DNA from: Terebella lapidaria
Taxonomy: Eukaryota; Annelida; Polychaeta; Terebellida; Terebellidae
DNA length: 64,000 bases
Reading direction: 5' to 3'
NCBI GenBank assembly: GCA_949152475.1
Contig: OX424561.1
Location: 24,732,481 to 24,796,480 of the forward strand
Shown here: piece by piece, positions 1 to 57,076 of the stretch
Numbering within the stretch: position 1 is the first letter of the stretch
How the letters are laid out: every line of letters begins with the position of its first letter
Notes under the pieces: model-generated
Told to the model about the DNA's origin: nothing
The model's input: the letters and a program-made list of their open reading frames with translations, nothing else
Databases searched by the model: none
Made by a program: the position numbers and the translations under genes

Positions 1-243
1 TGAAACTTCAACGTGGTGATTTGGGTCAGAGTATGGGTTGCGCACGTAGTCAAAACCACCTTAGTATCGGCAAACGTACCGGGCGAACCGAATTACAAAT
101 ACATGGAAAACATGAAATGGCCATCACAGGGACAACATATAAGTCCAATACTACTATGTAAGTATCAATCTATTACCACCAATACATCCAGATTTGTTGT
201 CGTTACCATTATTACCTTTTCGCGCATAGCCATGGTCACTTCT

Positions 244-459
244 TCAATGTACACAAGTTTTCATGACCAAATTTCTTACCCATATTTTACACACACAATG
301 TAAACTGTAGTACCGTTGTGCTTTGTCATTCATACGCAAATTATATAGTACATTATTCTCGTCAATGAGGATTTGTTTCGCATTGACATTATAGAGGTGG
401 CCATCTGCATGAGCAACCATTTCAAAGTTGCAAATTCCTTTGTTAAATGCCCAAGACAT
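244..459 (-). CDS. possible first coding exon of an unknown gene
   Basis: This 71-codon reading frame on the minus strand starts with an ATG and has a protein-like composition: charged, mixed residues and no low-complexity runs. It may be one exon of a gene running off the left edge. A GT that could serve as donor follows the codons for HC near position 297. I recognise no domain. It could also be a chance frame, and nothing adjacent confirms it. Confidence 0.25.
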   Translation of the reverse strand: MSWAFNKGICNFEMVAHADGHLYNVNAKQILIDENNVLYNLRMNDKAQRYYSLHCVCKIWVRNLVMKTCVH

Positions 460-902
460 TACTTTTTTTACTATTAGGCTAGTGTTTTCATGTCAGTTAC
501 TTCTGGTAGCAATACTGTTGTGCTGAACACATATACAGTATATATACTGTTCTTGTTGTGGAAGCCTACACAATTCAGACCACTTCCAATAAGTGTAAGG
601 TTTTTTCATGCAGTGTAATTTCATGCACCACATTGATAACTAAATCTTTCATGTGGTCAATACACTATGAAGTGCGATTTGCAGAACGTGCAATGTACTT
701 ACAATTAAAATCAAACTATCATATTATATGAACAAAATTTTTTATTGCTTCACCAAAACAAAAGTAACATAAAATAGTTCAGAAAGCATTGCAATACCTT
801 GCAAGCTTCTCAGCTTACAGAAATGTAATCCAGCTCAAACCTGATTTACATGAGATTTGCTACTTGCAATGAAATTTTCCTCACTTTGCAAATTCTAATA
901 AA
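460..902. other. non-coding stretch, nothing recognised
   Basis: AT-rich sequence between the uncertain minus-strand exon and the HIRAN-like exon. I see no coding frame, no clear repeat and no RNA gene. It ends in a pyrimidine-rich tract and TTTGCAG, which looks like the splice acceptor of the next exon. Confidence 0.4.
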
Positions 903-929
903 ATGTTCCATTCATGCCATATTTGCAGT

Positions 930-1421
930 AACAACATGGATACTCATCTTGGCAATGAGATGAACCCCATAAAGATTGAGTGGACAATCAAAGGATACCA
1001 CATATTTAGAGTGACACCACCAGTGGACAGTGTGCTGTCCGTGGTTCCAGACTGGAATAATAGATTCGACATCCATGCCATGAACGTCATGGTGCCCATG
1101 GAGTGGCGGGGACCTCCCGAGATGGCTGGTCAACAGGTTGGGAGGGTGCCAGCCAACCTGTGCCGGTCCTTCAGATTGCTACAAGCGAGGTCTCTCCTTG
1201 TGTGGGACATCACGGCTACCGTGACGGGTCCTCCAGGATCACCTGCTGATGTCCATCAGCAGCAGCGAATTCAGCACGGGGTGCGTCGCCACCAACAAGG
1301 CGGAGGTGCCGTCATCCCGGCCAAATATTGTCTTACTGTTCTAATGAGGGACTTGCGCAGCACCATGAGGATTCTTGTGGATGAACTTGATCGTGCAGAC
1401 CTAGAGAGATTTTACCTGTAG
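930..1421 (+). CDS. HIRAN-like domain protein, last exon
   Basis: An acceptor (TTTGCAG) precedes the exon near 929, and the frame stays open to a stop at 1421, giving about 160 codons. The N-terminal half carries the HIRAN-like pattern GYHIF, then PDWNNRFD.HAMNV, then VGRVPANLCR about 40 residues later. The C-terminal half is Pro/Gln-rich and ends in a conserved-looking GGGAVIP segment. HIRAN domains are known to bind single-stranded DNA 3' ends in repair and remodelling enzymes such as HLTF. From memory, stand-alone HIRAN-like proteins of this shape are common in marine invertebrate genomes. Upstream exons were not found. It lies 0.8 kb before a decayed DUF6589-like transposase gene on the same strand, so it may belong to the same old element. 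Medium confidence in the domain. Confidence 0.55.
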   Translation, partial: NNMDTHLGNEMNPIKIEWTIKGYHIFRVTPPVDSVLSVVPDWNNRFDIHAMNVMVPMEWRGPPEMAGQQVGRVPANLCRSFRLLQARSLLVWDITATVTGPPGSPADVHQQQRIQHGVRRHQQGGGAVIPAKYCLTVLMRDLRSTMRILVDELDRADLERFYL

Positions 1422-2250
1422 AGAGGAAATAAATGATAAGTGTCATCAAAGAAATAACACGCAGGTATAACATTATAATACCTGTGCCTAAATTGACTTT
1501 TAAAATAAAGTTGACATACCCAGTTTCCAATTCGAGATGCAGTATGCAAATCACATAGTGATGATCAGAAATGATACAGAGTAGCACCAATAGCAGCAAC
1601 ATGTTGATACATGTCATACACTGAGTCAGATATTAGTTGTAATAGTAAAGTTATAACTTACAATATCAGCATAGAGATAAACTGCACACTGAGCCAGTTG
1701 ATTCAATCATTATTAATGACATTGCAATTAACACTAGTGTTGTTTCGAAGATCATTACCTTCAGAAGACACCAACAGCAGATATTAGAATAAAAGTGTTC
1801 TAGGTTGCAATGCGTACAACATGACACTAGCAAAGGATTTATTTCATGCATTCATGCATATATACATGTATACATTCACACACACACAAAGCAGCATTGC
1901 ACATCCTTTACAACGAGCCACACTGTGCTTCCATGGTCCTCCAACGGATCACTTCCTGAAATGACAAAGAATACATGAAATAAGTAGTCGTACATTCAAA
2001 ACTGACAATAAAGCATAACATGTCACTGTTATTGGGTTCACTAATTCAGTAATAAAGAGAAGTTGAGTCACTGCACTCAGTGCTGTGTAAATTGAAATTA
2101 ACGCGAACAGGTGTGACTAGTGCTGAAGGGCAGTCAGTACAGTGTCAGTGACAGTGTGCGCTTATCTACAACTTTATCTAAGGTTATCTGAAGTTACATG
2201 CTTAGAGTAAAATAATACTCCCTTATAAGAGCTATAACTGTGTATTTATG
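1422..2250. other. intergenic stretch, no gene recognised
   Basis: AT-rich sequence with a short CA-rich run near 1875-1890. I see no convincing exon. A splice-acceptor-like GTTTTGAAG just before 2260 probably opens the next gene's exon. Confidence 0.35.
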
Positions 2251-2252
2251 TT

Positions 2253-4421
2253 TTGAAGGTCCTGCGGGTAATTCAATGGTACTGTTTCAGATGTCGGGCA
2301 AGGCATGCTGCTGTCTTAGTCATGCAAAGTGGAGTGATGACACAGGCAACGCTGCTGCACATAACGCTGTCGAAGAAGGTGTCGAAGGCTGTCCACTGCT
2401 ATTTGCTCAGTCCCGGCCTGTGCTCAGCCCGTGGAAGCTACCTGTGCACTGTTTGCGTTGGTGTCGTGCAGCAGAGGCTTGTGCAAGATGAAGCGTCGGA
2501 AGCAGGTTCATCTGTCCAGAAGGAGGTCATGACGCCAGATGAGGTGAAGGAAGCAGTGGACGCAGTCGGTTCTGCAATTGAAGCCGGCATCGTCGATCAA
2601 ATACAGCTGCAGCGATTAGCATCTGCCATTGGGAGATCGCAGGAGAAGAACATCGTTGAAACTGCTCTGGCCTGTACTTCTTCACAACTTTGAGTGGTTT
2701 TGAAGTAACTGCATGGCTGCAGTCCATGAATCCAGTTTTGCTTAGTTTCCTGAGGAGTATAACTGGCATTGAGGGTACAACGTCGTTCCAGAAACTTGTT
2801 TCTTTGTCTCGGGCTGTTGAATTTTTGTTGTTTTGTCGTAATTCAAACATCATCACTCCTTACTCGTTCTCAATTGGTTTAGTTCTTTATTTTCTGTCGG
2901 GTAGTAAGCTAGTGTGCAATGTTTTTTCGTCCAATAGTCATGGACCCTCGTATGATTCTGTGACCTCTTGGATATCTCGTCAATGCCGGTTTCCTATTGT
3001 GTGTCCATCACGAGATGTTTTGGTATTTTTTTTATGATTCCCAGGTCATTGGCCGTAACTGGAAGGTGTCATTCGGCAGTCAAATACCAAACAGCATAAT
3101 CACATCGCTCATGCACATTCAGCCGAAGCCAGCATCGTTATACAATTGCACGCCAATCTGTCTCCGTCTGGCTGGCTCACCTTCGCAACAGATGTCACCC
3201 CTGTCATCAACACAATGACAGAGGAAGAGTCTGGTTACGACGAGGCATTCCGCACAAGGCAGGAACAGTTCATCAAGCGGCAACTTCAGATTGTGCTGAG
3301 TGAGTACCCATGGCGAGGATGGCCCCTCTACAATAGTGACGTACACGATGTCTTCTGAAGGTGTTGATGTGTCATTCAAGAAGCAGAAGCAATCACACGA
3401 TCCAGGCTTCACCATCGATAACTGCCACTCTGATGACCTGCCGGAAATTTCAATGGGGGAGCCCATACTACTGAACCCCAACAGTTATGAGCGTGTGACT
3501 GAGGTATGAGCGTCTGACTGGATGAAATTCGTGAAGGCTCTTTGATGGACGGTCGGAGGTGGTGCATACCTTCTGGCAGCACGTATACAAGGGCGTCCGT
3601 GCCATTGTTCGATGTGCAGGATAGATTTCCCGACAGTTGCGGCTTTTCGAACACACGTGGCAGACAACCACAGTGAATCGGACCATGCTGACAGCAGTGA
3701 AGAAGGCAGTGACCAAGAGGTGTCGTCACACTTGAAGTACAGTGACTTGCTTCTGGTACCGGGCTACGGGCACATGGAAATGGCATTCACGAAGGCACTG
3801 TTCAAACTGGGGTGGGAGCCGATGCTGAAGACCCTTGCGAAGTTGATGGGCTTCCGCACAGAGCGTGCACTTGCGTATTGCCGCTCAGTTAAAGACCACC
3901 ACAAGTCCTGGCAGCTGCTGAGTGTCGTTTTGTACGGGACTGGACTGGAGTTGTTGCGGCCGTATGTGATTCACTGCCAAGAATTGGGTGCACCTGCATG
4001 TGTTGATGGCTTCTTTTCTTGGATGTCTGGTGTCGAGAGTGTGTCCTTCTTGTCTGCTTATGAATTTGTCTTTCGTTATGTTTTGGCTCTGTTCCTGTTT
4101 CGTGATGGTCTTCGCTGCAATAATTCTTCAGTTATTATGATGTGCCGAGCCATTCTCAGCCCTCTGGGATACGTTCTGAACCAACCCAAGTATTGCGAGC
4201 TCGATATCAGGGACCGTATCATGCGCCAACTTGCTCCACCAGATGTGAGACACTATCTGGAGATACACGAGACGTATGCCGATAGCTCCGATAAATCTAG
4301 AGAGGGTGGTGATTTCCGCCTAGAAATCAGGAACAAGCGCCTGAAGCGATGTCTGCCTCCCGGGTTCCCCACCAACAAGCAGTGGACTGAGGCGACCAGA
4401 AGTGTGAACAGGTTGCACAAG
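2253..4421 (+). pseudogene. decayed DUF6589-like putative transposase
   Basis: Successive pieces on the plus strand read as one protein in shifting frames. First is a CxxC...CxxC finger (CFRC to CTVC, 2310-2460). Next comes a helical part ending in PSRDVLVFF with YDSQVIGR straight after it in another frame (about 3000-3060), the position where relatives carry an acidic pair. Then follow a C2H2 finger (CSMC...H....H, 3607-3672), a long open frame (3612 to the donor at 4421) with GYGHMEMAF and DHHKSW, and a last signature GGDFRLEIRNKRLK. This resembles RNase H-like transposases of the DUF6589 type. At least three changes of frame between 2690 and 3520 point to a dead copy, although homopolymer errors in the assembly could explain some, for example the T-run near 3030. 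Two unrelated-length intact relatives lie further right in the window. Confidence 0.6.
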
Positions 4422-4753
4422 GTAATATTCTGCACTTTGAGAACTTCGATTGTGAGAAATGTCCTTCATCATTTCATGGCAGTCGGAACGACTTACGTAT
4501 CTTCTTCGTCTTCTTCTTCCGGTGAAGGCGCATCTACTCTCAGAGTACCAGGCCTGTGGTAGAGTATGGGGTGGGGCGAAGAACAAATTGTAACTCTCAT
4601 GTCACGATTGTCATTGTTTGACATGCAACTAATACAGGTCAAACTTTAGTTGACGTTGCAACAGTCATTGTTATGGTTATAATGAAATATACCATAATCC
4701 TATTAGTGCAGGACAGCATGTGCACTAGTTAGCCTTGTGTGAAGTAGGCATAC

Positions 4754-4932
4754 CTGTGGTCATGGCAATACCACTTTAGATTTATGGAGTCCAGCTCCTT
4801 CTTAGAAATGTGCATGCCAGCACACTTGGCATGGCACCAGTACTGGCAGCGTGCCTCATCGCACTGCAGCCAGACTCCACGGCGTCGATTGGCAGCAGTA
4901 CCATACTTGATGTTGCACTTTGGGCAATCATC
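4754..4932 (-). CDS. PHD-finger exon of an unknown gene
   Basis: Reading the minus strand, an acceptor (GGATTAG) is followed by DDCPKCN, then WLQCDEARC, then CHAKCAGM and finally WYCHDH before a donor (CACAG then GTATGC). The spacing of Cys and His matches a PHD-type zinc finger, a domain that usually reads histone H3 tails. The final pair is C..H instead of C..C. The exon is 179 bp and leaves phase 2, so flanking exons must exist. A hydrophilic open stretch at about 5110-5275 on the same strand, with YYWHNGEEVA near its start, is a likely upstream exon, but I could not match its splice phase. It is antisense to, and just past, the decayed DUF6589-like gene. Confidence 0.5.
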
Positions 4933-5109
4933 CTAATCCGTATGACAATAAATTGATCCCATAATATTGACATATGCCAAAAATATGTTGAAAATAATAT
5001 TAGGGTTCATTTCATTTTAACCAAACCGAGGCAAATTAATCTATAGTTTTGCACTACTGTGACTTAGCAAGAAACAGTACAGATTGATAATCTCAGCATA
5101 GTCCTTTGA

Positions 5110-5275
5110 ACTTGTTTGAGTTTCCTTGCACTCAGTTAGTGCAGCAGTTGCAGGAGTCTGCTCCACCGTATCCGTTGGACCTTCTACATTGGGCACAGTC
5201 GGCCCGTCCCGAGCCACCTCCTCCCCATTGTGCCAATAGTACGAGTCCCCCCTCTCCGACTTGATCCATAGGCTA
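5110..5275 (-). CDS. possible exon upstream of the PHD exon
   Basis: After GATGTTAG, read on the minus strand, an open frame begins LWIKSERGD and continues YYWHNGEEVA, with an acidic, Thr-rich tail. The composition is protein-like. Donor and phase were not resolved, so linkage to the PHD exon at 4754-4932 is inferred only from strand and closeness. Confidence 0.3.
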
Positions 5276-5569
5276 ACATCACTGTTAGTGGATTTGTGTA
5301 GCTCAATTGCCTATATGGAATGAAATGTTGTGCGGCATGTTGTATGAAAATATTTACACCTAGGCATGGAGAACTTGGTTTGAACAATGTTAGTACATGA
5401 GCAATGCAGTTAAGTATTTATCCTTTATTTCATAGACCTTCATTCACTACTGTCAAAAAGGAAAAATTATTGTGTTATTCTAGTGAAGTGTACATTCCAT
5501 GTCCAGATTCGTGAGAAAGTTGCCCCCACCACGGACGATAAGTCGCACATTTGCAGTCATCGTTCATAA

Positions 5570-5752
5570 GACGCAGGAGTTGGCCCCTGGAAGGAGCACC
5601 TCCGCCGCTCTGGGTACCTAAGTGATCCCACCACTAAGGGGCGACTGTGCTCAGTGGACGGTGTCTTCTTGGACCCGTCCCTGAGCAGCATCACCTCCAG
5701 TGCGAAGAAGCGAAAGTGTTATGTGTATAGCAGAATAAAGACTCTGCGATAT
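5570..5752 (+). CDS. short open frame, unidentified
   Basis: About 60 codons open to a TGA at 5752. They include PWKEHLRR and a basic AKKRKC patch that could be a nuclear localisation signal. It could be a terminal exon belonging to the left-hand gene cluster. No family recognised. Confidence 0.25.
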
Positions 5753-6024
5753 TGAATCTGCACTCAAGGTGTGGAAGAGCCCAAGCGAGTAGTGTATTTC
5801 ATCGGTTTTCATTGTGATAGAGGTTATACATATCGCATAGCCATCAGTTTATAGTTGAAATCTGTTATGCAGATGGCGCCGAAACAACCAGTCTAAATCC
5901 TCCCTGAAGACCGCCGTATCGAGGTCCGTACGAACGCGGAGATCAGGGAGGAAATAAACCTTCTGCTTCACCATCTGGACCTAATTAGAGGCGACGTCGG
6001 CGATTTGAGGGCCTCCTTCCAGGC

Positions 6025-6260
6025 AGCCAAGAACAAAGCTGCCCTAATACAAGTGTGGACAGAAGCAGCGGAAATGGACGCTATGCTGTTTGATGAAGAT
6101 GAGTTAGTGAGTAGCCATACAATGGACGTGAAATAAATCTTCAGCCAAGAACAAAGCTGCCCTAATACAAGTGTGGACAGAAGCAGCGGAAATGAACGCT
6201 ATGCTGTTTGATGCAGATGAGGTAGTGAGTAGCCATACAATGGACGTGAAATATATCTTT
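6025..6260. repeat. 118-bp tandem duplication
   Basis: The segment starting AGCCAAGAACAAAGC at 6025 is repeated at 6143 with only a few base differences, a period of 118 bp. The first copy continues a frame rich in charged helical residues from about 5915 (IEVRTNAEIREE). The duplication is recent by its low divergence. Confidence 0.75.
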
Positions 6261-6269
6261 TTGAAAAGG

Positions 6270-8487
6270 GTTCGCTTCCTTTTACATAACATCCGCGAGC
6301 GTTTTCGACCCTTTTCGACTAGCTTCACTTCTCTGCACACTGCTTTTTTCGGTGTAGGTCTGGTTATCTTAACCTGGTCCATTCCTGTAAATGCACAATA
6401 ACTTGAAAAAACCGATAGGGAACATTGTTCTTCTTATAGTCAGTTACTGTATAGAATATAATTCAGGTGCAGTTATCAGCCTGCAGCCTTTCTACATGCA
6501 TCCCTTCAGCATGACTTTTTACTTGTATTTTGAGGTTTTTACTACGATGGTCAATCATAATTTCAGGTCCCGGATCCAGACCAATGATATTTCGTCTGGA
6601 AACCGGAAGGAGGACAGCAACAGGCGAGGTAAAAGTTTTGCAATCCTTATCGAGTGGTTTATTCCCAATTTATTTGATAAAACTGTGTTCATGGCGAAGG
6701 AATTACGTAGTAAGTGGGCTCCAAACATCAGGTATATATTTATGCAGGCTAAAATGTCCCGTTCATTCGGGATTTATCAATTTATCCGGACATGTGAGCA
6801 TTGACTGGTCAACGTTGTCACTGTGGGTTACAATTTGGCCGTCAGATAGTGCCGACTGAGGCCGCGTATGTCGCGTGTTCTCTATTTATACATGGCATGG
6901 GGGTGTTGCCGATTATGTACAACAGGAAGTGGCACTATTAAGGTCCATACTGGCCCCATACGACAGTACGGTCCTATATAGTGGTTCTTCTCAACTGAAA
7001 TCGTGCTTACATATATTTCCCAGGTCGAAGTTGGATGTATCCTTACGCGAGACGTATCTTTGGTCTTGTAGAATCTTGGAATGAGTATAATCCATTGATC
7101 ACACCATATAATCCACTTACTGAATCATACTGAAAGGGACTACAGCAGAAAATGTTCGTAGTACGACACATTACATGTGTTTTGTGAGACCAATTGGTGG
7201 CTGTCATCCTGGGAATATTTCTTTCGGTTGTGAATACCATATTTTGCGATTATGACAATCAGTGGGTTCGTCCAGAAATATGTGCATAATCGAAGACATT
7301 TTAGTTCATAGGCAAAGAATTGTTGTAGATCGGGGAATGACGACCAATGACTTTCACCATGGTGATCTAACCCCCCTCATTGGCTAGATAGGCCCCTACC
7401 ACCAACTCAAATATACCATAGCTCACTAATGTGCTCATACCGCACCTTAATGGGAATGACAAACACTGACAACGTTGTTTCCAGACGATAACTGACATGT
7501 CGCTCACCACGTGAGTTTGTATTCGCTCCAGTGAGGAAGCCGTTGAAATCCGTGTACGGGGTTTTGAGTTCAATGTGAAGAGCGAGACTCACCCTGTCAC
7601 CAGCTGCTTAAGTCCCGTCTCGGTCAGTGATCGCATGGAACCACATGGACAATAATCGAGCACATGTACTGGGGTGGATTATTAACCCTCTTTCGACCCT
7701 TCATGCACATTGGGGGTTCATTCTCAGAAAGAGCGTAATATAATATCATATTTGTTCAGGTACGTACATGTAATTTGAGCGTTCTGTGTATTGAAGAGAT
7801 GTTTCTATCAAAAATGATTAAGTGTCTATACATTATGAGTACATTTTCCATAAGTTCTTGGTTAAATATAGGAATGTCGATAACAAAATGAGACTGTATG
7901 TAGATGTATCTCTCTCTGTGTCTATATGTCAAGAAGCTTAAATTATGTGCACTGATTGGCACAGGTATATGATGTACTTATCAATATGCCGCTATACATG
8001 AGTTATTCATATCACCAACATATATATTTCTCTAGAGCAAGAAGTTTTCTTGATTGTGATATTCCAATGATCAATTCAAGGCAATGTGATTGGTATCAGC
8101 AACAGAATAGAGTGACCATCTGACACCTCAGCCAGAAGACAACCAAGTCTCAACCAGAAGACAGGGAATAGCAGCTCCACACCACTTGAATGATCCCTCA
8201 ATCACAGGCACCCAGGAGCCAATCACTCAGTTGGTCAAGAATAGGGATGTCCAAACATAACAACAATTTGTGCTTTTGAAGTTTGCACCTATATATAAAC
8301 ATTCAAATTAGCGATGTTGGCCATGTGGGACCTGTAATTCTGAAACGCCTGTACAGAATTGCACACTGTATACATGTATTTAACATTTTGGGTATTGTAC
8401 ATTTCGCTGTGACACAATTGCATATATATTTCATACAACAGCAATTTTGGGATTCAATGACCAATTAATAATAATTGATATTTTATT
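6270..8487. other. gene-poor left flank of the young transposon
   Basis: Short frames only, with no domain pattern, tandem array or RNA gene visible. The right edge is the unique flank into which the transposon inserted. The left copy of the 8-bp duplication follows at 8488-8495. Confidence 0.45.
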
Positions 8488-8495
8488 GTTTAACT
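8488..8495. repeat. target-site duplication, left copy
   Basis: GTTTAACT immediately before the left inverted repeat. It is identical to 18065-18072. Confidence 0.93.
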
Positions 8496-8889
8496 TAGTT
8501 CCGATGAAACTGACATTGGTACTGATAGGACGACGTGAGTACCATGTCAGTTTCGTGGCCACTGCATCATCATATGGGCGGGATTGGGGGACACATGTAC
8601 GAGCAAATCATCTGTGGCACTTAACTAACATGCAGGGTATACCCGAAGACTGCCTATGTGATCTACACGAACACAGCTGCACGTAGAAACTGACGATATT
8701 TGCAAATAGTAGGTTCTTATTGGTAATCTTGACTTCCAAACTTTTAGCAACAAATCGAAGCGGACATTTCTGACAGACCTTGTATAGCCATCATTCGCCA
8801 GATGGCGCGCCCGAGCGACTGAGCGATCATTCTCAATCTGCATATTGTGTACGGGAAATAGCAATATTTGTCAATAAATGCACGTGTTC
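8496..8889 (+). repeat. left terminal inverted repeat, 394 bp
   Basis: This is the mirror copy of 17671-18064. It contains the nonamer GAAACTGAC at 8506 and again at about 8688, and its reverse complement at about 8547, so the outer 60 bp form a small internal palindrome. Such repeated words are usual as transposase binding sites; that role is inferred. Open frames of about 79 codons run through it in both copies only because the repeats are identical; they are not genes. Beyond 8889 the two ends diverge but keep a 10-bp palindrome, ATCGTACGAT, at 8954 and 17579. Confidence 0.93.
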
Positions 8890-9358
8890 ATATTACATCA
8901 TGTACACGGTCATAAACATGTTGCAATTGTATTGGTCAGTGTTACTGGCCAAAATCGTACGATGTACCGATGGTCTGTAAGGCGGTAGATCTATCCAAAA
9001 CAGTACTCATGTCCGATTTTAACGTTCTGGGTGAATGAATTAAGCTTTACAAGGGTAGGGGCGTCCTGTAATTTTTAACAGTTAATCAATCTTAATATAC
9101 GGCCGTCGGGAACGGAAAATAACCTTCCCTTCTGATATCATCACCTAAAAGAACATGAACCAGTTTCAATGTGTACAACAACAGTATAATATGTATCATA
9201 CCACACTGCACAGCTTAACACCCCCACTTACTAAGTGCCCATTGATTTCACTTGGGTCGGACCACATCAGTGTGTGTGTGTGCAAAAATCACCTGACTTA
9301 TTCTGCTCCTTATAAATAGAAGTCCAATCTCGATATGTGCTTGTGCACATCAATAAAC

Positions 9359-12300
9359 ATGGAAAAAAATTGTTTAAACTGCGGCGAAAGTTTTAAATGT
9401 CAGAAACATACCAATCACAATCTTCACAAAATAGCATCACCCAGGACAAGAAAATATGTTTTTCCAAACATCGCTCGGAGGGACAAGGGTTTTGTGTGTG
9501 AAAACTGCTTGCAAATTCTAAAAGACAATACAATCCGGAAGAAAAACAGCAACCGAAGGACATTGCAAAGTAACCACATCCAAAACCAGGTGAAGGTGAA
9601 GAAGAGAGCATGTCCTGAAGATTGCGACAGCCATGCAAACCCGAGAAAAACGGTAGTCGTACAAAGTACGTCTACGCAGGAGATCCGGGTGTCCAGCGAC
9701 AAACCACAAGGAGGCTTCACGAACAGGGCTGTGTCGTACATCCAGCACGGCAACTACAAGAAATGCTTCCGCCTGCTGATTCAGCATTCCAGTGCAGCAC
9801 GCCAAGCACTGCAGGACGTTTTCTGCTCCGAGCTCCAACGGGAAGTCAGAACATCTCAACTGACATCTCTACAGGGCGCAGCAAACAGCACAGACCGGAT
9901 TTCTAGTCTGGACTGGTCTGTCGTCGTGGGACAACTGCAACAGAATGCGCCGCTCTTCTGTGATACCGTGCTCAGCATGCTACCGTCAACGTCATCAATG
10001 CAGCGCAAGGTTCAGAAACAGACCAACGGTGTCAGAAGGTTAGTTGAAACTGTCTTCGTAGTTGATTGCAAATTTCAAATGTCACATGCTACTCTATAAT
10101 CCTTATTCCACAGGATATTGAGATAATTATAGTGTTTTGTATGTTTATTTTCAACCATAACCTATCATTCAGATATATTCGCTGCTATAAATTGGTTGTC
10201 AAGGCAACGATCATTGATATATAGGCCTAGTCCATACCGACCATGGTTGCTTTCAGTTTGCTATGACTAACGTGACAAGTTGTGTAAAAATTGTAATATG
10301 GATATGGATGGGTAATATATAATTTGCAACTTTTTCCAAAAACAGTTTGATACTACTTTGATTTATCTCCTAGCAACCATGATTGCTATGGATATCGTCG
10401 CCATGGTCGTCACCTTGCCGATTGGCAACCAATATGGCATATCAGATGCAGATTATTGCTTATGCTATAGCATGGAAACACCAAGGTTGCATCGATATCC
10501 ATTACAATAATGATAAATAAAGTCAGGAAAACTCATTCTCATAGCCAATAATGATGTCCGACAATTATCGGGATACCAATTATCCCGTATCACCAAATTC
10601 ATCAAATCCACATATCTTTGGGAGTGATTGAGCTTTTGATGTGCTATAAAAAACACTAAAGGATCCGGTAAACCTGATCTATCATAGCTTGTTGATTGTG
10701 AGTAATTCTAGGATTGACTTCAGCTGCACTTTAAAGTTTATAGTACTCGCCAAACCTGTTTCCTTAGGCGTATTTGTCATCCATCACTAATGAGTCATTC
10801 AACTTTAAATGTTGCTGCCAAGGTGACCTTTACTCCGTCAGTGTCATGAAATCAAATTGTAATTTAAATTTCAGGACTCTTACACACGGTGGCTAGGCGT
10901 TACGCGTTATTCAGGGAGTGCCGCGTAAAATCGTGAGTATTACGCGTTATTCGTGAGGAAATGGCAGCCTGTGGTTGATCCCTAGCAGGAAAAACATACA
11001 ATTTCGCTAACTATACCGTTTTGAAATGTCGGATTTGGGTTTGCACGGAACATTACACATATTCATGATTGTTGTTGAGAATTTAAATCAAAGAAATAGA
11101 CCAGTGTAGCGAGACCTTCGGCTGCACAATATCTGTCAATGTTGCTTCGACAGCCGCTCTCCCCGGTTTTGGGGTTGAAAATGTTATGTATCGGCATTAA
11201 TGTAGATAGAATGACAGGTCTATGATATTGAAAGCATGGGCTTCACATGTGCCTATCTTCAAAATGTTTCACAATGGTCGCAAGCGGCACGAATCTAGGT
11301 TGAATGTATCATTTGTTTAGTTGCTATACTTTACGCGATTTGAGTGAGGGCATTACGCGTATTTGCATGAGTAAATATTTTTTTGAGGCTGAGATATTTC
11401 TGTTTTTTAATGCGAATTTTTCTCCCGTTTTACTGCTCAATTGATGGAATAAATTCAAGTTCAAAAGATAATCTTTTCACTTGGTGAGCTTCTGTGTAAA
11501 AGACACAAAAAACTCTTAGTATTGCCAAATTCATATTTATGAAGATTGGGAGGAACATATGGAGTATAATGATAAGTGAGAAGTATCGTCAGTACTGGAC
11601 ATTGTGCAGCCTCAAATCATACTTTAAAAATATCTATGTATGCATTATCAGCTCTACTATCCCCGACAACGCTCACATGTTTCCTCATGCTGTAACGCGT
11701 GTGCAGTTTTTCTACCTCAGGCTGATACGCGTAAACCATTAAAAGCTTCTCAGTTAATAGAATACTCGATTAAAACAACTGGTTGCGTTGTGTAACAATA
11801 AAAAAAGATTTCTCCGAGCATTCTATGATTTACAAACATGCGCTTTGTTGGTTTCAATTGATAGCCGATGATATTTCACAAACTAGTCGCAAGCGTGCGG
11901 GTGTTGTCACGAACTGTGTGTCCGTTTTCGTAAATATAACGATGTATACAAGTAATTCATAGTAGCATACGCAATGTTTACTCATTTGGGTGTTCCGGTG
12001 AGGCACCGTGTACAGTTCGAGGTGGCAGAGAACCGAATACCACTACCTACAACAGGAACGGCGGCACAGCAGTTGCCTGCCACGACATTCGTGCCCACGG
12101 AGAAAGACTTCGTCATCCTGAGGGACTACATGACGTATCTTGTGAAGGACATCGTCAAAAAAAACTGTCCCAACGTGCCCATGAGGAAACCTTGTCATCC
12201 TAAACACGACTTCATTGAGATGACGTCCAAGAAGTCACCAGTATGTAACTTAGGAGTGGTACAGGGCAACCCCAGCACCACGCCTGACACCATCAACATC

Positions 12301-14654
12301 ATGCAGCACTTGTCCAAGTACGTGCCTGTGTCGGGCGGGAACCCTGTCGCGGTTGCTGTCCATGGGGACGGAGGGACAGTGGAAACAATCACCAAGGCGA
12401 AGAAAGGTCGCGCTTTGAGCGCATCACCAGTATCTGCGTTCGTCTCCATGAAGGAACTCCCGCAGGAGTTCCACAAGGAAGGAATTCTCATGGAGGTGAC
12501 TTCATATTTGTATGTTGAAAGATATAATTTAACATAAATATTATGATTGTCTGTTTTCTTTGTATTGATTGTTCTTCATCATCCCTTTACTACATCAATA
12601 ACAAAGAACTCAAGATGTCCATGTACATGTATGTCATCACGTTTGTATGGTTTGCAGGACTTAATGCGCGACATGGATTCGTCACAGTCCAGAGCGGACA
12701 AGGGGACGTTGTCACACATGAAAGTGCTCTTTGGACATTATTCTGCCCAGACCCCAGTCATGACACATTTCAAGGACGTATGGAACTTGATATCGGTGAG
12801 AAATCAGAGTTCCCTTTCTGTGCACATTGCTGACAATAATTTTAGGAGCTCAGGATCTCTGAGTACATTTCCCCGAAAATGTACGAACTACATGCATGTA
12901 GGTTTGTAACCCGGATTCTGATTTCCCATTCTTCTAACAGTTGGTCACTGAGGGGCTCGTGTGTGTGATGTTTCTTCGGGAGGCAAACATGGCATCACTG
13001 GACAGTATACCCGAGGGAGACTCCTGTGATGGTGATTGGGTTGACGGTGTAGTTGACAAGATGTTGGATCGGTTGTTTAGGCGTCCTACCCCCGAAGACA
13101 TCCGCTCTGTGTCCGAGGCATATGATGGAGAAGGGAGCTCAGACGAGTCCTTCTCTTTCTGCTTTTGCCGTGAAGGTAGTGTAAACTGCAATCAGCAATA
13201 CTGACACAAACAGATGCACATCATGTCCTTGATGACGTAGTCGCTACTGAGGTACAACACTATCCAGCTGTTCTTTTTCATTGCAGACAAGGCAGAAAGC
13301 ATGGTCCAGTGTTGCAACAGTTTATGTCCCAGAGATTGGATTCATTTTTCTTGTGCCACACCTGAACTGCACACAGCGCCTGAGGACGACTGGTATTGCT
13401 GCTCCGAATGCTCCGATAGCGATGGCTACATATATTGCGTGTGCCAAAAGAGGAAAGGCGGTAGAATGGTCCAGTGCGCCTTGAAAGAGAATTGCCGCCG
13501 CCACGAGTGGTATCACGTCCCGTGTTTGAAGTTGAAGAAACGCCATAGATTTCCAGGTGTGTTCGAATTCCTGCATGCTTAATAATTTGATTTAAAAAAT
13601 TGTTACATCATTCCCTAATATCCGGAAACGTGGACTCATTATGCTATTTTTTTTACAGCTAAGTGGTACTGCAGTGACCAGTGTGCACTGGCAGAAGATG
13701 ACGATGACGGCACACAGCAGTACACACTTTCCCTGCTGTGGCAGTGCCTGAACATCCTTGCCAGGCGGCTCATGGTGAGGCTCGGGGATGGACCATCCAT
13801 GTTGGCAATGTGGCGAATCGACATGATTCAGTTCTGGGCCAAGAAGCACACTCGCTATTTGAGATTGGGTCATCGTCTTTTGGCGAGTGAGTACCAGAAG
13901 GATAATGAATTTGTGGATAACAATGGATCAGTTTTTGTTGGCAAAATTGAAATGTTTATATGGTCAAATCACAACTGTGATATACATATAGGTACTGGAG
14001 GACCTATGTCCGAGGCCGAGACGTTTGAGTTCACTTGGAATCGTGTGGCCAATCTCCGAGGGAAAGAGAACTCGAACATCCCTCTGGACCTGCTCAATGA
14101 ATTTCTTAACAAGGATTTCAAGGGTAACTTTGTACTTCTTCTTTTCACATGTGGTAGTTTGGAGGAGGGGTAATGATGTGTTTGGAGGACGAGACCTTTG
14201 GTAGAAGAATCATAATCCAATGCATAATAATATCATCATTAGATGTCATTAGATGATCATTAATGTACATTATAGACTTCCATATATCTCCACAGACATG
14301 ATCAAGCAAAGTCGTGGGCAGTATACGCCAAAACAAATACAACGCTGTAGCCAGATGGGGGGTGCGTTCCGCTCAGAAATGAGGACTTTGCTGATGGAAG
14401 CAGATGTGGCTGGCGAAGTTGAAGCGATAGGTGCATACGGTTCGAAGTCTCCAAGTACCCGTAAGGCTGTACAAGACTTTGTTGAGGAGTACAGCCCGGT
14501 GGCATTATTTGACTATTGTCCGCCCAGGCAACACAAGTCTTTCTCTGGATATGTACGGCCACCAAATGCCATCAAGTCGCCTCGAAAACTGGGTTCGATG
14601 CTGAAGCAGCTTTCCTGCAACATAGACATGTGGAGAGATATTTCATCGTCCTGA
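9359..14654 (+). CDS. DUF6589-like putative transposase with tandem PHD fingers
   Basis: Exons seen: 9359-10038, 11966 (ATG at 11974)-12495, 12658-12795, 12941-13175, 13287-13556, 13659-13886, 13992-14123 and 14296-14654. From 11974 on, all phases agree and give 627 codons. The first exon has a CxxC finger pair (NCLNC, FVCENC) and the helical SLDWSVVVGQL...APLFCDTVL block typical of the family's N terminus. The second has KSPVCNLG, then HLSKYVP, then VHGDGGTVE, matching the GDQLT block of relatives. Exons 4-6 hold two PHD fingers (CFCR...CSEC; YCVC...WYCSDQC), the second ING-like. Exon 7 ends NIPLDLLNEFLNKDFK, a late catalytic-core signature. The ATG at 9359 has a good context (AACATGG). The part expected between 10038 and 11966, bearing the first acidic residue, was not found. 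Role as the element's transposase is inferred from position. Confidence 0.65.
10039..11965. other. large intron; missing middle of the transposase, ACGCG cluster
   Basis: No exon for the expected middle segment of the DUF6589-like protein was found. The donor before it is phase 2 and the next acceptor needs phase 1, so at least one exon is hidden or lost here. The words ACGCGT/TACGCG recur at about 10907, 10948, 11332, 11354, 11695 and 11723, in both orientations, and may mark a nested insertion of about 0.85 kb. An imperfect palindrome around GATATC lies near 10395-10500. Confidence 0.4.
13160..13705 (+). other. two adjacent PHD fingers across three exons
   Basis: PHD 1 runs from FCFCRE at the end of exon 4 to CCSEC in exon 5. 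PHD 2 runs from YCVCQKRKGG to WYCSDQC at the start of exon 6. Both keep the C4HC3 ligand order. The second has MVQC...C....WYHVPCL, like ING-family fingers that bind methylated H3K4. They sit inside the transposase-like protein, between its GDG block and its NIPLDL block, so the domain is an insertion into the core and not a tail. Confidence 0.75.
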
Positions 14655-15387
14655 ATAGTCCCAGTGCATTCCTCAGTACATTGACAAATATGTTCAGCAT
14701 GTAAACAATCTGTATATACTGATCATTGTCCTTTGGTCTGTATGCATTCCATGACATTGCAAACATTGATTTTTCCATGTCACTAGAGGCGGCTATTTGA
14801 ACCTTGTTTGATATTGTGACCGGGAAGTTTTCCACGAACATGCAGATAATTCTAGCTGTATGTCATGCTTTTGTGTGATTTATGTCTTAAACCATTATTG
14901 CTTTGTATGTGTATTCGTCCAGGCAGAGATGTGTATCTATGGATCTTCACTTACAAGTACCCGGTATTTGCTAGAGGCAATGCGATTTATATGTACATGT
15001 GGATAATACAACCTACATAATTATGTGATTGCATTTCATGTGTAGCATATGACAATGGTTGTTTTGGTATATGAGTAGGCAAATCGTGTCATTTATTGTT
15101 ATGAATCTGTAACATGAACATATATTATGCCCATAAACTACTGAACTCGTGTTTCATACATTTCTTTATTGCGTAAAAAGCTACACCGTTTGCTGTGAGA
15201 CATGTCATACATTATGCTGTGAGACATATATATATATATGTATAGATGACCTGGTGATGCTTATATTACCATAACTCCCGTATCACACAATATTAGTGAG
15301 ATTCAAATCCATGTCAAATTCGTAGTTCTACATAAAATGAATTATAAATTAACCTATAAATACCGTAGCTGAATTATCAAAGAATAT
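14655..15387. other. spacer between the two facing stop codons
   Basis: 733 bp of AT-rich DNA separate the transposase-like stop (14654) from the helicase stop (15388). It contains a short AT microsatellite near 15228-15238 and presumably both 3' UTRs. No gene seen. Confidence 0.5.
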
Positions 15388-17429
15388 TTATTGTTCCATT
15401 GGCTCTGACTGCCTTTCACAGACGGAACAACATCCTGGACCTCCACACATTGATGCCAAAGTATTTTCCGCCATGCAATCCAGCCGGAAATATTTTAGGA
15501 TCTGCAGCCTCAGACAGCTGTCAGTGCTTGTCACGTACTTAAGTATACAGGGCTGACAATATTTCTTGTTAATCGACAAAGGCGGCTTATAGAGGATGGC
15601 CTTGCAGAGTCGACCATCTCGACCTGCCCGGCCCACCTCCTGCCAGTACATGAGGATGTCCTGCGGTGGGCCCCAATGCAGTACGAACTCGATGTCCGGC
15701 ACCTGGATTCCCATGGCAAACGCTACTGTTGTGATCAGTACTCTGAGGTTCGAGTCGGTCAGGAAAAGGGAAGTTATTCTCTTGGAATCTTCCTCTTGGA
15801 GGTTGGCGTGGAACATATCCACGATCCTGGTGTCTCCATCATCAGAGTCAGACTCAACAGAAAGTGCCTTTCCAAGGGCTTGGTAGAACTCTCCGTACAA
15901 ATTGGAGCACATATCAACAGACCTGCGATTGAGACACATGATATCTTTCACTGTCAACATGTATGATGCATCACAGTATTATTAGTAGATATTGGATCTA
16001 TTTTCCATATTGTCCTCGTATTTGTTACGTTACCTCGTGAATATAATTATCTTGGGCATCCTATTCCTAAGAGTCCGTATCATTTCCACTACCCACTGCA
16101 GCGATGCAAAAGAGTCTCCACCACTGGAGATTTCCAGTTTGATGTTTACACTACATATTATAAAAAAAAAACAAAGGTGTAAATTTGGAACGTTGTGATA
16201 ATATTTTGGGGAACACGAACTATAACACCTACAAGTATAAAACAGGACGCACCGATTGGATATCTCGGCAAGAAAGTCATAGTCTTCACGAACTATAGAG
16301 AGATGACTAGCGATCTCCGCGACCATGTGTTGCGTGCAAGTTGCTGTAAGCAACAGCACCTGTGTCTCCGAGAATATGCTCCGTAATCTGTCGAGTTTCT
16401 TGTATTCCGGACGAAATGTCTGTCCCCTACAAATAACAGATGATAAACAAGCACAATGATTGCACTCATCAGTCTAGTCCATATGTATGTACCAAGTATG
16501 CATGGTTACCAGGTGACTGAGGTGTTCAACTGCGGGACCACACTCACATATCAAAGTGGAGGGAGTGGAAATTGTTACATCAACAATGACAAGTACAGAT
16601 CAATAAAGTTACATAAGAAAAATAGATGCTAGAAGGGATTGCAGGGAAGCCAAGGCTTAAAACGTTTCAATTATAAAGTTTCTTTTTCGGAAAGTGGAAA
16701 GGAGCAACTGGCATATATTTATATTATTACATACCACGTGAGCATGCAATGCACCTCGTCATATGCCAGTAGAGCTAGTTTAAATTTTTTATTTCTCCTC
16801 TTCAAGAGACCAAGGAGCGACGCGGTGCACATCATTTCCGGATAGGTCATGAGGAGGTGGAACTGCTCGTTGAGGATTTCTGAATCATGTAATATATTGC
16901 ACATGAATGAAGTTACTCATCGCGGTGGCCTGGAACGAACACTAAGTGTACAAACAGTTCAAAATTTAAGGTACCATTTTTTGTGTCTTCACACAAATCC
17001 TTGGCGCTTGACAGGCAGATCACGCTCAGACCGGTCGTACTCCACCTTTTTCGCTGGTCTTCCAACAGTGTTTTCAACGGGAACACGACGATAACGTAGT
17101 GTGGTTTTCGGCTGGTGTACATCTGTACCGGTACATGAAGGGTCTCATAATGATGTAGGCATGAAGACGTTAATAATAAGAATGACACGGATTATATAGC
17201 CTGATAATGAAGTTTTACTTGCCAGGTTCAGTATTTCTGGGTAGTAAGCGAACACATCACTTTTCCCGTAGTTGGTCGGTAGGATGAGAAACAGAGCCAA
17301 TGTTTCATGTTTTAGAAGATGTTGAAATGCTTGTTTTTGGTGAGTATTGAATTCGTAATTTATGTTATATTTGTCCTTGACTTTCCTAAGTGCAATGGCG
17401 AAATCCATTTGGTTCCAGTTTTCCGTCAA
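15388..17429 (-). CDS. small RecQ-family DNA helicase, six exons
   Basis: Exons, read leftward: 17429-17223, 17122-16975, 16879-16735, 16426-16253, 16150-16034 and 15922-15388. Phases agree throughout and give 1326 nt, 441 aa. Motifs: PTNYGKS (Walker A, residues 51-57), VVFPL..LLEDQ (Ia), DEVH (motif II, about 159-162), LLLTAT (III, about 191-196), IIIFTR (IV), AFAMGIQVPDIEFVLHWGPP (V) and GRAGRDG (VI, about 361-367). A RecQ-type zinc patch (SCLRLQILKYF...C....CCSVC) follows. There is no winged-helix or HRDC domain, so it is much shorter than BLM or WRN. RecQ enzymes unwind DNA 3' to 5'. Oddities: N-Y replaces G-x in Walker A, DEVH replaces DEAH, and intron 1 appears to use a GC donor (GCAAGT). 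It lies just inside the right inverted repeat and is intact, so it is probably an active component of the element. Confidence 0.85.
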
Positions 17430-17670
17430 TCTCCAGCTTGTTATTTTAGATTGAATAATATCACTGTGAGCTATTCATATGTTATATTTACTCTAGGGAG
17501 TGGTGGGTCATACAGTCGTGAAATATCAGGTCATTCTGTGAGCAGGGGATTATGGAATATTATGTGTGAAATCAGTACATCGTACGATGTTTTGATGTAC
17601 TGACCAATAACTGATTGTTGATGGTGAACATGACATGTACATGCACACGTGTAACAATGTGTAAACACAA

Positions 17671-18064
17671 GAACACGTGCATTTATTGACAAATATTGCT
17701 ATTTCCCGTACACAATATGCAGATTGAGAATGATCGCTCAGTCGCTCGGGCGCGCCATCTGGCGAATGATGGCTATACAAGGTCTGTCAGAAATGTCCGC
17801 TTCGATTTGTTGCTAAAAGTTTGGAAGTCAAGATTACCAATAAGAACCTACTATTTGCAAATATCGTCAGTTTCTACGTGCAGCTGTGTTCGTGTAGATC
17901 ACATAGGCAGTCTTCGGGTATACCCTGCATGTTAGTTAAGTGCCACAGATGATTTGCTCGTACATGTGTCCCCCAATCCCGCCCATATGATGATGCAGTG
18001 GCCACGAAACTGACATGGTACTCACGTCGTCCTATCAGTACCAATGTCAGTTTCATCGGAACTA
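17671..18064 (-). repeat. right terminal inverted repeat, 394 bp
   Basis: Reverse complement of 8496-8889, equal in length and by eye without mismatch. The helicase start codon lies 242 bp inside it, so the promoter probably lies between the repeat and 17429 or in the repeat itself. Confidence 0.93.
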
Positions 18065-18072
18065 GTTTAACT
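18065..18072. repeat. target-site duplication, right copy
   Basis: GTTTAACT immediately after the right inverted repeat. It matches the left copy at 8488-8495 exactly. Confidence 0.93.
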
Positions 18073-18840
18073 GGATATATTTCATTGGGTAACATGGCCA
18101 ACGCAATGTATGTTTCAAATTTTGGTATTGATAAAAATGTGTAGGTCCGAAATACATTATGAAATTTTTAATGGCAGTGTATCAATATTGATAAATAATA
18201 ATGATAAATTCCTAACATGTTTGATTGGTATTATAATTGATTTATTTTGTTCTTGTTTCTATGTTCAACTTTTATAAGATAAACATATGTATGACGAGTA
18301 TACTACCAAATGCAATATCCATGATATTTTTTGTCTGGTATGTGTGATATCATACTTTTGATCCATGTATGTCAAAAGATGAAGTGCTTCAATTTATAAT
18401 TCACGAATAGTCATGATGAAATGCTACAATTGTGTAAATTTCTCATCAATTGTGTTGAAACAACCCATGTGCAATAATGATACTTTACTTTCGAATGTAA
18501 CCATGATGCCAATGAAACAAAAACCTGGTGATATTTACATTTACTATGTTATTGGGATCAGTATGTATCCTGTATCTAGCTTGGTTCTGTGCTCTTTGTA
18601 TGCATAGACACAGGCATATACACAATATGGTCAGTGAATACATGCATGTACTGTTAGTTATTTGGTGAACACAAATTGTTATATTAGATGTTATAGTAGA
18701 TGTCACTACCCCAGAAGTTTTAAACTTATATAACATTTATTTGCAGTACGTGTTCATTTCTTCAAGAAAAACCATTTTCGAAAATATTCAATGCGCATCA
18801 CTGACAAAAAAATGGCGAGGGTAACAACCCCTCAAGGACT
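18073..18840. other. AT-rich flank, no gene seen
   Basis: Host flank right of the young transposon. No domain, repeat or RNA gene recognised. Confidence 0.4.
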
Positions 18841-20640
18841 GATTGCACGTAAATTATCAAAATCACCAAGACAATACAATACCCTGACTGAAAATTTGAC
18901 TAGCACACACATATACTCATGGATGATGAACCGAGACATAGTTTCATGAATGATATCACGGAAACTGTGCAATTTGATGATTAGAGAAATCATTTTATAC
19001 GTTTCACCAAAACGAACATTCTTGTGTTCCACTTGACAAACAATGGCTGTTGCGTATATTTATTCTTTGTTGTGGTCAAAATAATAAAAACATCTAGGGC
19101 TATACTTTCTGTGAGATGAATACAATGAACTGAACATTCATAATCCCAAACACCTCGGTGCATCCGAGTGCATTTCACTTGTGAGTTTTACTGGCCTCAC
19201 TAGCTATTTGCTGTAGATGATAATCCTTTCGCTCGCCCTGTTGTGAGTGTATTTTGTATACTGAGAGATAGGTCGGAAAATGACATAATTATGAAAACGA
19301 TGAATTTAACAAATTTAACAGTGTTTAGTAAGAAACGGAGTCTCGGTTAGTAATCCTTGATGGCTAACAATCAGAAAGGCAAAGTTTCACGTTGATTGGA
19401 ATTGTGTAATTTTATGAATTTGTTACCTTTATATTTACATTATAAGTGAATGGACAGCTGGTCGATTCCAGGTTCATGACTATCACCAGCCCAAGCGACG
19501 CGGAGCGCGTCCAAGATGGCCCACAATGGTGCTCCGGACGAAAACAGTAAAATCATCATTATGACTGATTAACGGGCTGTCGCAAAAACTGTTAGTATTG
19601 TATGTATGCTAATATACGAGAGGCCCCCAAATACATATGAGGCCCAAGTATTATATCCTGCGCCTTCCTCTATATTCAATAAGGATTAAAAAGGTGCGAG
19701 ACGGATTAAATGGTATGTTTTCAGTGAACGAGTAGTATTAAGGAGCAGTGTACGGTACTTGGGCCACATATGATAACTCAACTAAATACCTCGATATATT
19801 GCTCAAAAATCCCTCCAAACATCGCTAATCCTTCCTGGCAAAATTTGTGGTCGGTGACTGCCAAGGCTAAAGTCAATGTTTGGAGGGGATTTTCAACAAT
19901 ATTTCGGAGTATCTAAGTGCGTTCTCATACATAAGTTGGGTCCTCTTGTGTATCTGAGTGAATACGAAAAGACAATTTGGTGTGTCAACCCAGATAACTG
20001 TATTAATCGTGATTTGTTTGTTTTCGTCCCGAGCACCAATGTGGGCCATCTTGGACGCGCTCCGCCTTGCTTGGGCTGGACTATCACATGCAATCAATTC
20101 TTAAAACTTCATTGATATGGGTTAGAAGGACAATACTGGTGTCTTAAAAACTATAATGCCATTCAGCTGATGGCTCGGTAGATGTAAAGACTTCGCTCCG
20201 TAGTTGTGATGCATCTGCAGCGAAAATTCAAATACAATTAAAATCTGAGTCAGAGTGTGTGAAGTATCTCAAAGCTTTATATTCTTATTGAACTTCCATG
20301 CCACCTACTTCATTGTTGGAATTCACAGAAACAGTGTTGAGTATTGGTAATGATTTATATGTTCTACATGTATCAATGTCATCACATGAAAACACTTGGT
20401 AGTCAAACAATGTAGAAAAATAATCATTGAGTATTGTTTGGAATTTTTCCAGAGAGTAGTCGATAAGCAGCTGCAGGTGCGAAATCTGTAGCGCGCCATC
20501 AGCCTCTCACGAGATATCCCTTTGACAGCTGACGACTACGTGAAGGCAGCTTTAGATTATGGACTGAGGCCAGCAACAGCAACATTCTTCGAAGGGCAGC
20601 TTAGAAGTTGCAACAGGGAGAATAAAGGTTAATGAGTGAT
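18841..20640 (+). pseudogene. relic of the second transposase-like family
   Basis: 18841-19477 is an inverted copy of 35019-35700, the first large intron and splice edge of the gene at 33427-37967. The copy includes the acceptor (CCAG) and the first codons of the next exon (GTTCATGAC). The exon then breaks at a 592-bp MITE and resumes at 20088 with ATGCAATCAATTCTTAA, as in the paralogue near 34999, before similarity fades. A coding-looking remnant with SRDIPLTADDYVKAALDYG lies at 20455-20635. The relic lacks the rest of the gene. It shows that this family has at least two copies here, in opposite orientation. Confidence 0.6.
19487..20078. mobile_element. 592-bp foldback MITE with 9-bp duplication
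   Basis: Ends are CAGCCCAAGC...GCTTGGGCTG, with inverted repeats of about 65 bp and further inner mirror segments (CCCTCCAAACAT near 19820 and its complement near 19878), so most of it can fold on itself. GACTATCAC flanks both ends (19478-19486, 20079-20087). The uninterrupted paralogue near 35000-35015 shows this word once, which proves the insertion. A 9-bp duplication suggests a Mutator-like source, though the ends are not diagnostic. Confidence 0.85.
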
Positions 20641-25012: not shown

Positions 25013-26400
25013 TTTAAGTTTGCTTCTGACTAAAAGTTCTTTAGGATTTTGATGCTTCTTGTAAGCTGTTGCTATTTTAATATCACCATCAGTATTTTTG
25101 TTGAGTTGTTTCATATGCTTTTTAACAATTTGGAAAGAGTGCCGAAAGAGTGCCGAAAGAGCACCTGTTTTTGAGAAGGGTACTATATACACCAGGTCGA
25201 ATTTATTTTTACTTTTGTTCAAAGGGTCATACTTTGTAAATTTTTGAACGTTGAGGCCATGAGGTTCGAAAGTGCCTAAAGTATCAATCCAACAATATTC
25301 CCTTTCAAGTCGCCATTGTTTGTTTAAAAGTTCATCACCAAGATCGGAAACCTGTTCAATTGGTAAAAGAGAAAAACAATCGATGGAATTTCAGTTTTGC
25401 TGTGAAATTTAGATAGATGACTGTATAATGCATTTTCCTCATTGCAGCTAGTTATTGCAGCACGGTGACGATTGTTTCTGAATTTGAGTGATTTACCGGT
25501 TTCACCTACATATTGTTTTTCGCAAAGCTTACAAGTGTATAGATAAATTATATTTTCTGAGTTGCAATCCAAAGCTGAGTTGATTGAGTAGGTTTGTTCA
25601 AAAACTGATCCTGAGAAATTTTGACAATTTGGAACTAAATGACATGTTTGACATTGTCTATAATTACAAGGTTTTGAGCCAGATGAGCTGGAAGTGGGCA
25701 ATTGAAAATCAGCACCTAGTCTTTCCTCACTGTTTAAAATTCTCAATGAATTTGAACTTGATTGATGCCCTATGAGAATTGAAAATTTCGAGAAACTGGT
25801 GAAATTTGGAAATGCCATGTGGCCAAATGAGGAAAATGTCATCTAAATACCTATAATAGCAATCTGGTTTGAATGGACACTTTTGTAAAGCTTGCTTTTC
25901 AAATTCAGCCATATAAATATCTGCATAATGAGGTGCATATTTCTGACCCATGGCTGTGCCTGAAACTTGTAGGAATGTCTTACCGTCAAATTCAAAGTCA
26001 TTACATTTAAGTGAAATTTCCAATAATTCTATTAATATACCTTTGAATAGTTCATTGTTTGCCAGAGTCGGGAATGCATTTTTAATTGCTTGGATACCTT
26101 CTTCATGATTTATATTAGTATACATACTTTCAACATCTAAAGTGATTAGTAAAGAATTTGGATCTAGTTCAAGCCCTCTAACTTTATCTAAAAAGTCATA
26201 CGTGTTTTTGATATATGACGGATGCTTATTTGCTTGACCTTTTATATATGAATCAATATACATAGCTACTTTTTCAGATTCACTGCTGCAGTCCGAAACA
26301 ATTGGGCGCCCTGGAGGCATTACATTTGGAATTGGCCAGGAGTCTGTGGGTTTATGAATTTTAGGTAGCATATAAAATCTTCTTTGACAAGAACAGTTCT
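25013..26400 (-). mobile_element. Penelope-like element: RT and GIY-YIG endonuclease
   Basis: Reading leftward, the reverse transcriptase shows LPKIHKP, PPGRPIVS, TLDVESMYTNI, GTAMGQKYAP and the catalytic RYLDDIF (26371-25727). A second frame then has a CxxC..H-type knuckle and a GIY-YIG nuclease core, YLYTCKLCEKQYVGETGKS, about 25570-25490. A basic tail lies at 25222-25010. RT plus C-terminal GIY-YIG is diagnostic of Penelope-like elements. The knuckle before the nuclease suggests the Neptune/Poseidon group. The 5' part is missing and the frame is not continuous, so it is an incomplete copy. Confidence 0.8.
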
Positions 26401-57070: not shown

Positions 57071-57076
57071 TTCTCG

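Follow-up and report, generated by a model that had tools for sequence, protein, structure and literature searches.

The 64,000-bp stretch of Terebella lapidaria DNA analysed here (the window; positions 24,732,481 to 24,796,480 of contig OX424561.1) carries at 8496-18064 a 9,569-bp element, referred to below as the first element, which is probably one copy of an AcademH-like DNA transposon of the 'cut-and-paste' type that inserted recently. It is bounded by perfect terminal inverted repeats (TIRs) and a target-site duplication (TSD), and includes two genes that face each other, one for a DUF6589 protein and one for a RecQ-family helicase. The element is called AcademH-like, and not a proven member of AcademH, because its duplication, seen at one insertion, is 8 bp as compared with the reported 9-10 bp. 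DNA transposons that combine a transposase with a RecQ-type helicase are a kind already described, and the proposal of a first-pass annotation of the window, that the group may not be described, is therefore not retained: PMC3627910, with reference to Kapitonov et al., includes 'RecQ Helicase in Academ' in its list of proteins other than transposases that transposons encode, and AcademH (PMC10045372, PMC10799480) and KolobokH (PMC9587614) are likewise in print.

Ends of the first element

The following features define the two ends.

8488-8495: left TSD, GTTTAACT
8496-8889 (+): left TIR, 394 bp, 5' start TAGTTCCGATGAAAC
8505-8555 (+): subterminal palindrome in the left repeat, corresponding to the paired bases of the centroid structure; the right repeat has its mirror image
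17671-18064 (-): right TIR, 394 bp
18065-18072: right TSD, GTTTAACT

The left and right arms showed 0 mismatches over 394 bp, as the first-pass annotation had described, and identity stopped abruptly from base 395 onward. An inverted-repeat scan gave a length of 400 nt because it runs on into the duplications, the true arm being 394 bp. The 8-bp duplication, also recognised earlier, is perfect and flush with the outer ends of both arms. Two 8-bp sequences at fixed places would agree by chance with a probability of ~2.2e-5, as calculated from base composition, and 5 of 200,000 random pairs matched; no 9- or 10-bp duplication was obtained by shifting the boundary when the flanks were compared by eye. 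With up to 3 mismatches allowed, the first 19 bp of the repeat were found in the window at both ends of the element and nowhere else (0.00 expected, 100 shuffles). Comparison of the joined flanks with the window revealed no empty site; apart from the two flanks, the only match was an incomplete copy of the right flank at 35414-35633.

Since the arms are without mismatch in 394 bp, a recent insertion is suggested, and the earlier description of a young-looking DNA transposon is consistent with the long perfect TIRs and the 8-bp duplication. Both arms begin with TAGTTCCGA, followed by the near-perfect palindrome. When folded as single-stranded DNA, bases 8496-8575 gave -15.3 kcal/mol (z=-3.24), with 0 of 200 shuffles equally stable, and the palindrome is a likely protein-binding site.

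A further pair of inverted copies is located at 18855-19486 and 35005-35633 (634 columns aligned, 90% identical). The right copy overlaps open reading frames (ORFs) at 34242-36692 (-) that appear transposase-like by eye, two of which had no Pfam family above the cut-off.

Genes of the first element

Pfam searches covered 14 of the 18 ORFs listed, four of these being exons of the first element that were searched as part of its gene models. The gene content named in the first-pass annotation, DUF6589 plus a RecQ-family helicase, was recovered, and all six ORFs of at least 120 aa in 8400-18200 overlap exons of one of these two genes. The helicase gene, on the - strand, consists of six exons encoding 434 aa in an open spliced frame with matching phases, separated by four GT-AG introns and one GC-AG intron. 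Earlier automatic models had placed exon 2 in the wrong frame, and the model with the GC-AG intron and matching phases was preferred.

17223-17408 (-): helicase exon 1, with ATG and motif I (PTNYGKS); followed by the GC-AG intron
16975-17122 (-): helicase exon 2
16735-16879 (-): helicase exon 3, with motif II (DEVH)
16253-16426 (-): helicase exon 4
16034-16150 (-): helicase exon 5
15388-15922 (-): last helicase exon, with stop; C-terminal helicase motifs and a Cys-containing tail with weak likeness to RecQ_Zn_bind

The protein has the DEAD (1.5e-17) and Helicase_C (1.8e-14) domains in the RecQ arrangement and a weak RecQ_Zn_bind match (0.12), and no winged-helix or HRDC part was detected by Pfam. 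The motifs PTNYGKS, DEVH, LTATC and QEVGRAGRDG are readable. TIGR00614 (recQ_fam) matched with E=8.8e-53 and 179.7 bits, which is below the curated cut-off of 219.8. Among the best 60 of 80 distinct sequences with solved structures, matches were to RecQ4 (3.6e-33), RecQ1 (1.8e-31) and BLM (5.1e-31), and also to WRN.

The longest frame-consistent model of the DUF6589 gene, on the + strand, has eight exons and encodes 844 aa. PF20231 (DUF6589) matched residues 249-755 (profile 5-395 of 410, E=5.7e-26) and is the only Pfam family found in this transposase-like gene; no NCBIfam family was found for the protein.

9359-10038 (+): exon 1, upstream of the Pfam domain; an alternative donor gives an end at 10028
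10039-11965 (+): long first intron or gap, the expected place of the first-D exon; none recognised
12003-12495 (+): exon holding the putative second D (..HGDGGTVETI..), uncertain at its 5' end
12658-12795 (+): exon
12941-13175 (+): exon
13287-13556 (+): exon carrying a Cys/His-rich insertion, in which two PHD-like patterns can be seen by eye
13659-13886 (+): exon
13992-14123 (+): exon with the proposed catalytic E (NIPLDLLNEFLNKDFK)
14296-14654 (+): last exon, with stop

How exon 1 joins exon 2 is uncertain. The second-D exon may start in frame at 12003 (donor 10038) or at 12029 (donor 10028), a start at 12016 being out of frame, and its open frame runs upstream to ~11966. The second D and the E were proposed by eye and from an alignment with the other DUF6589 gene in the window (see below). 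Between them sits the Cys/His-rich insertion, which had no Pfam match and includes, by pattern, two C/DxxH strings (DWIH and CRRH). The helicase had been called intact, and its model is indeed open; the transposase model is without a recognisable first-D segment.

A second gene pair and the first-D segment

According to the first-pass annotation, a mobile unit should have the same gene pair at other sites, and a second, very diverged DUF6589 and RecQ pair is present 24 kb further on, at 41975-56002.

41975-53624 (+): second DUF6589 gene, 8-exon model of 918 aa, one of 8 frame-consistent models; 5' end undefined
47370-56002 (-): second RecQ-family helicase gene, 468 aa, two exons within 55365-56002 and 47370-48189

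In the second DUF6589 gene, PF20231 matched the C-terminal exon (2.1e-21) and two more exons with E=4.4e-4 and 0.0012, both below the cut-off, and the first exon had no Pfam match. The proposed second D is located in 47150-47319 and the proposed E in 52803-53624. The two genes are interleaved, the C-terminal exon of the helicase lying in an intron of the DUF6589 gene and the C-terminal exons of the DUF6589 gene in the long intron of the helicase gene. The splice sites behind this reading are GT-AG, and a block rearrangement is the alternative to interleaved genes. Comparison of 36500-41990 with 55990-64000 gave nothing convincing as outer ends or TIRs of this pair, as assessed by judgement without shuffles. 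The best solved match of the second helicase was 1oyw, E. coli RecQ (3.7e-42); its best solved relatives are 1oyw/4tmu RecQ and WRN, with RecQ4 weaker at 1.5e-22.

In two-sequence comparisons, the two helicases were 21.8% identical over ~402 residues (E=5e-23) and the two DUF6589 proteins 20% identical over ~236 residues (E=5.7e-9). In each helicase gene a phase-2 intron immediately follows the W downstream of DEVH/DEAH (..TW / ..EW), and the DUF6589 genes agree in a phase-0 intron that comes after an FH......E stretch. Because intron positions and phases are shared in both genes, common descent of the two pairs is likely. Given the differing closest solved relatives, the helicases may have been recruited separately. 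The Cys-rich insertion of the first DUF6589 protein is absent from the model of the second, in which no C/DxxH was found between the second D and the E.

Near 42.9 kb, upstream of the first exon with a Pfam match, the second DUF6589 gene encodes LTADNIDGR, which is read as carrying the first catalytic D; 'DN' at this position is also seen in other DUF6589 proteins. The corresponding segment was sought by splice-aware alignment of the long intron of the first element with the first-D segment of the second gene. For the whole segment the score was 50.7, as compared with a mean of 43.4 and a maximum of 55.4 in 25 shuffles; a set of 40 shuffles gave z=1.3 and a maximum of 54.1. The short core scored 25.0 (z=-0.2; maximum of 40 shuffles 37.0). 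A positive control on known exons scored 83.4 (z=5.3; shuffle maximum 59.0), with one of two introns placed exactly (12796-12940) and the other misplaced; the control stretch belongs to the better conserved Pfam domain, so the sensitivity of the alignment may be lower in the first-D region. If frame ends belonging to the neighbouring exons are disregarded, the longest + strand frame in 10039-11965 is 80 aa. The GC content is 0.33-0.42 in the six 300-base windows of 10100-11899, 0.48-0.50 in the two windows before and 0.48-0.54 in the two after. As judged by these data, the first-D exon of the first element is missing or too diverged to see, and the autonomy of this copy is doubtful. As the exon was not found, the copy was probably moved by a transposase supplied in trans by another copy, or lost the exon after insertion.

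Two further observations were made in the long intron. A 20-codon candidate exon near 10873-10931 was read by eye; it is unproven and was not chosen by the whole-segment alignment. A cluster of ACGCG at 10902-11727 holds, in this 830-bp part, 6 of the 13 + strand occurrences in the window, and perhaps represents an insert or binding sites. Elsewhere, a 338-aa ORF at 3546-4562 (+) matched DUF6589 weakly (E=0.0055), short of the cut-off, and bases 1-8487 had no match to the helicase of the first element with E <2.

In the proposed mechanism, the DUF6589 protein would be a DDD/E transposase of the Academ type, with the second D in ..HGDGGTVET.. and the E in ..LLNEFLNKDFK... It would bind the element ends, perhaps at the subterminal palindrome, excise the element and insert it elsewhere with a stagger of 8 bp at the target. 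The RecQ helicase would act as an accessory factor on DNA structures made during transposition, and might open ends or palindromes, disassemble the strand-transfer complex or steer gap repair, options that look indistinguishable at the level of sequence.

Placement among known transposons

AcademH is mentioned in PMC10045372, PMC10799480, PMC12210899 and PMC8290104. It is, by the title of Kojima 2020 (Mob DNA 11:15; cited via PMC10799480), a helicase-encoding Academ lineage of animals and fungi, and PMC10799480 names AcademH and KolobokH among the sources of helicase domains. PMC10045372 gives duplications of 9 or 10 bp for AcademH and of 3 or 4 bp for AcademX, and relates the difference to helicase and nuclease. 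The first element has in common with AcademH a helicase (the RecQ-family gene at 15388-17408, - strand) beside its transposase, which is here putative, and the TIRs, here of 394 bp without mismatch. By measurement it departs from AcademH as reported in its duplication, which is 8 bp at a single insertion.

Several points weigh against the assignment to an AcademH-like element of recent insertion. The identification of DUF6589 with the Academ transposase is presumed, and the term DUF6589 was not found in the literature searched. The 8-bp duplication departs from the 9-10 bp given for AcademH in PMC10045372, and the length of 9,569 bp from the mean of 5,565 bp given for curated bivalve Academ elements in PMC10294476, which reports amplification of Academ in bivalves. 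The first-D segment was not recognised in 10039-11965 by the splice-aware alignment, either as a whole segment or as a core. One copy with these ends is present in the 64-kb window, and no relative was confirmed in the viral_contigs or genome_contigs collections, which are viral and prokaryotic, so that misses say little: in viral_contigs the helicase gave four pattern stretches and the DUF6589 protein none, with none confirmed, and the TIR end had no match; in genome_contigs the DUF6589 protein gave ten pattern stretches, none confirmed. The identity of the arms, taken as a sign of youth, could also come from gene conversion between them, and host RecQ genes could be the source of the intron common to the two helicases.

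The departure in duplication length would also be explained by a separate DUF6589 and RecQ lineage outside AcademH, with 8-bp duplications and its own helicase capture. The 21.8% identity of the two helicases in the window, with different best solved relatives (RecQ4 as against 1oyw/4tmu RecQ and WRN), and the presence of the Cys-rich insertion in the first but not in the modelled second DUF6589 protein would fit such a lineage. However, one insertion is a poor sample of duplication length, best-hit differences at ~20% identity are weak phylogenetic evidence, and the intron positions that the two pairs share, in the helicase and in the DUF6589 gene alike, agree with descent from one ancestor with both genes; a separate lineage is considered unlikely. 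We advance only tentatively the idea that DUF6589 and RecQ transposons with 8-bp duplications are distinct from AcademH and have recruited or replaced their RecQ (RecQ4-like; RecQ/WRN-like) more than once, one pair being interleaved. An origin of the structure by chance or in assembly, as a segmental inverted duplication around host genes, would agree with the single copy and the lack of an empty site in the window, but it is very improbable in view of an 8-bp duplication that is without mismatch and directly abuts the repeats, the abrupt end of identity after 394 bp and the presence of the same gene pair elsewhere in the window.

Among other helicase-bearing elements, KolobokH was considered because GTTTAACT contains TTAA. 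KolobokH is a DDD/E transposon that, like the first element, carries a RecQ helicase, and in Kolobok-1_CCri this gene is, according to PMC9587614, on the complementary strand, as it is here. The same paper gives Kolobok elements 4-bp TTAA duplications, 5'-RR ends and a C/DxxH signature. A TTAA boundary within GTTTAACT would leave ends of 5'-CT and 5'-AC, and was ruled out since these are not 5'-RR; the first element instead has an 8-bp duplication flush with perfect repeats. C/DxxH, which is known from KolobokH, hAT, P, MuDR and Dada, occurs in the first protein as the pattern matches DWIH and CRRH, both of them within the Cys-rich insertion, and it is lacking between the second D and the E of the second protein. 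DUF6589 is the only Pfam family, and a KolobokH-like element is scarcely credible. Elements of the hAT and P types have 8-bp duplications, like the first element, and are not known normally to carry a RecQ helicase; the only Pfam family in the transposase-like gene here is DUF6589. Helitrons also carry a helicase, but this is of the Pif1 type and accompanies Rep, and Helitrons are not known to have TIRs or TSDs, whereas the first element has both, its TIRs being long, and its helicase is of the RecQ type.

The AcademH-like first element, as a clean and recent-looking copy with defined ends, offers exact substrates for probing the role of a RecQ helicase in a cut-and-paste transposon. Beyond the defined ends and the 8-bp duplication, it is another example of an already described kind. 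The duplication bears on the suggestion, made in PMC10045372, of a link in Academ between the accessory enzyme and the length of the duplication.

Rfam gave no match in the window at the gathering threshold, and the ORF at 873-1421 had no Pfam match at 0.1. Inverted repeats at 27210-27726 and 28622-29139 (518 bp aligned, 98.5% identical) span 1.9 kb overall, and 27210-29139 looks like a small, young foldback or MITE-like element. A reverse transcriptase ORF is located at 25324-26446 (-) (RVT_1, 6.9e-12), and the ORF after it resembles, by eye, a GIY-YIG portion as found in Penelope-like elements. Satellite sequence built of GACCTTGACCT-like units, partly shared between places, forms tandem arrays at 43433-44450, 45045-45932, 61213-61540 and 62621-62984.

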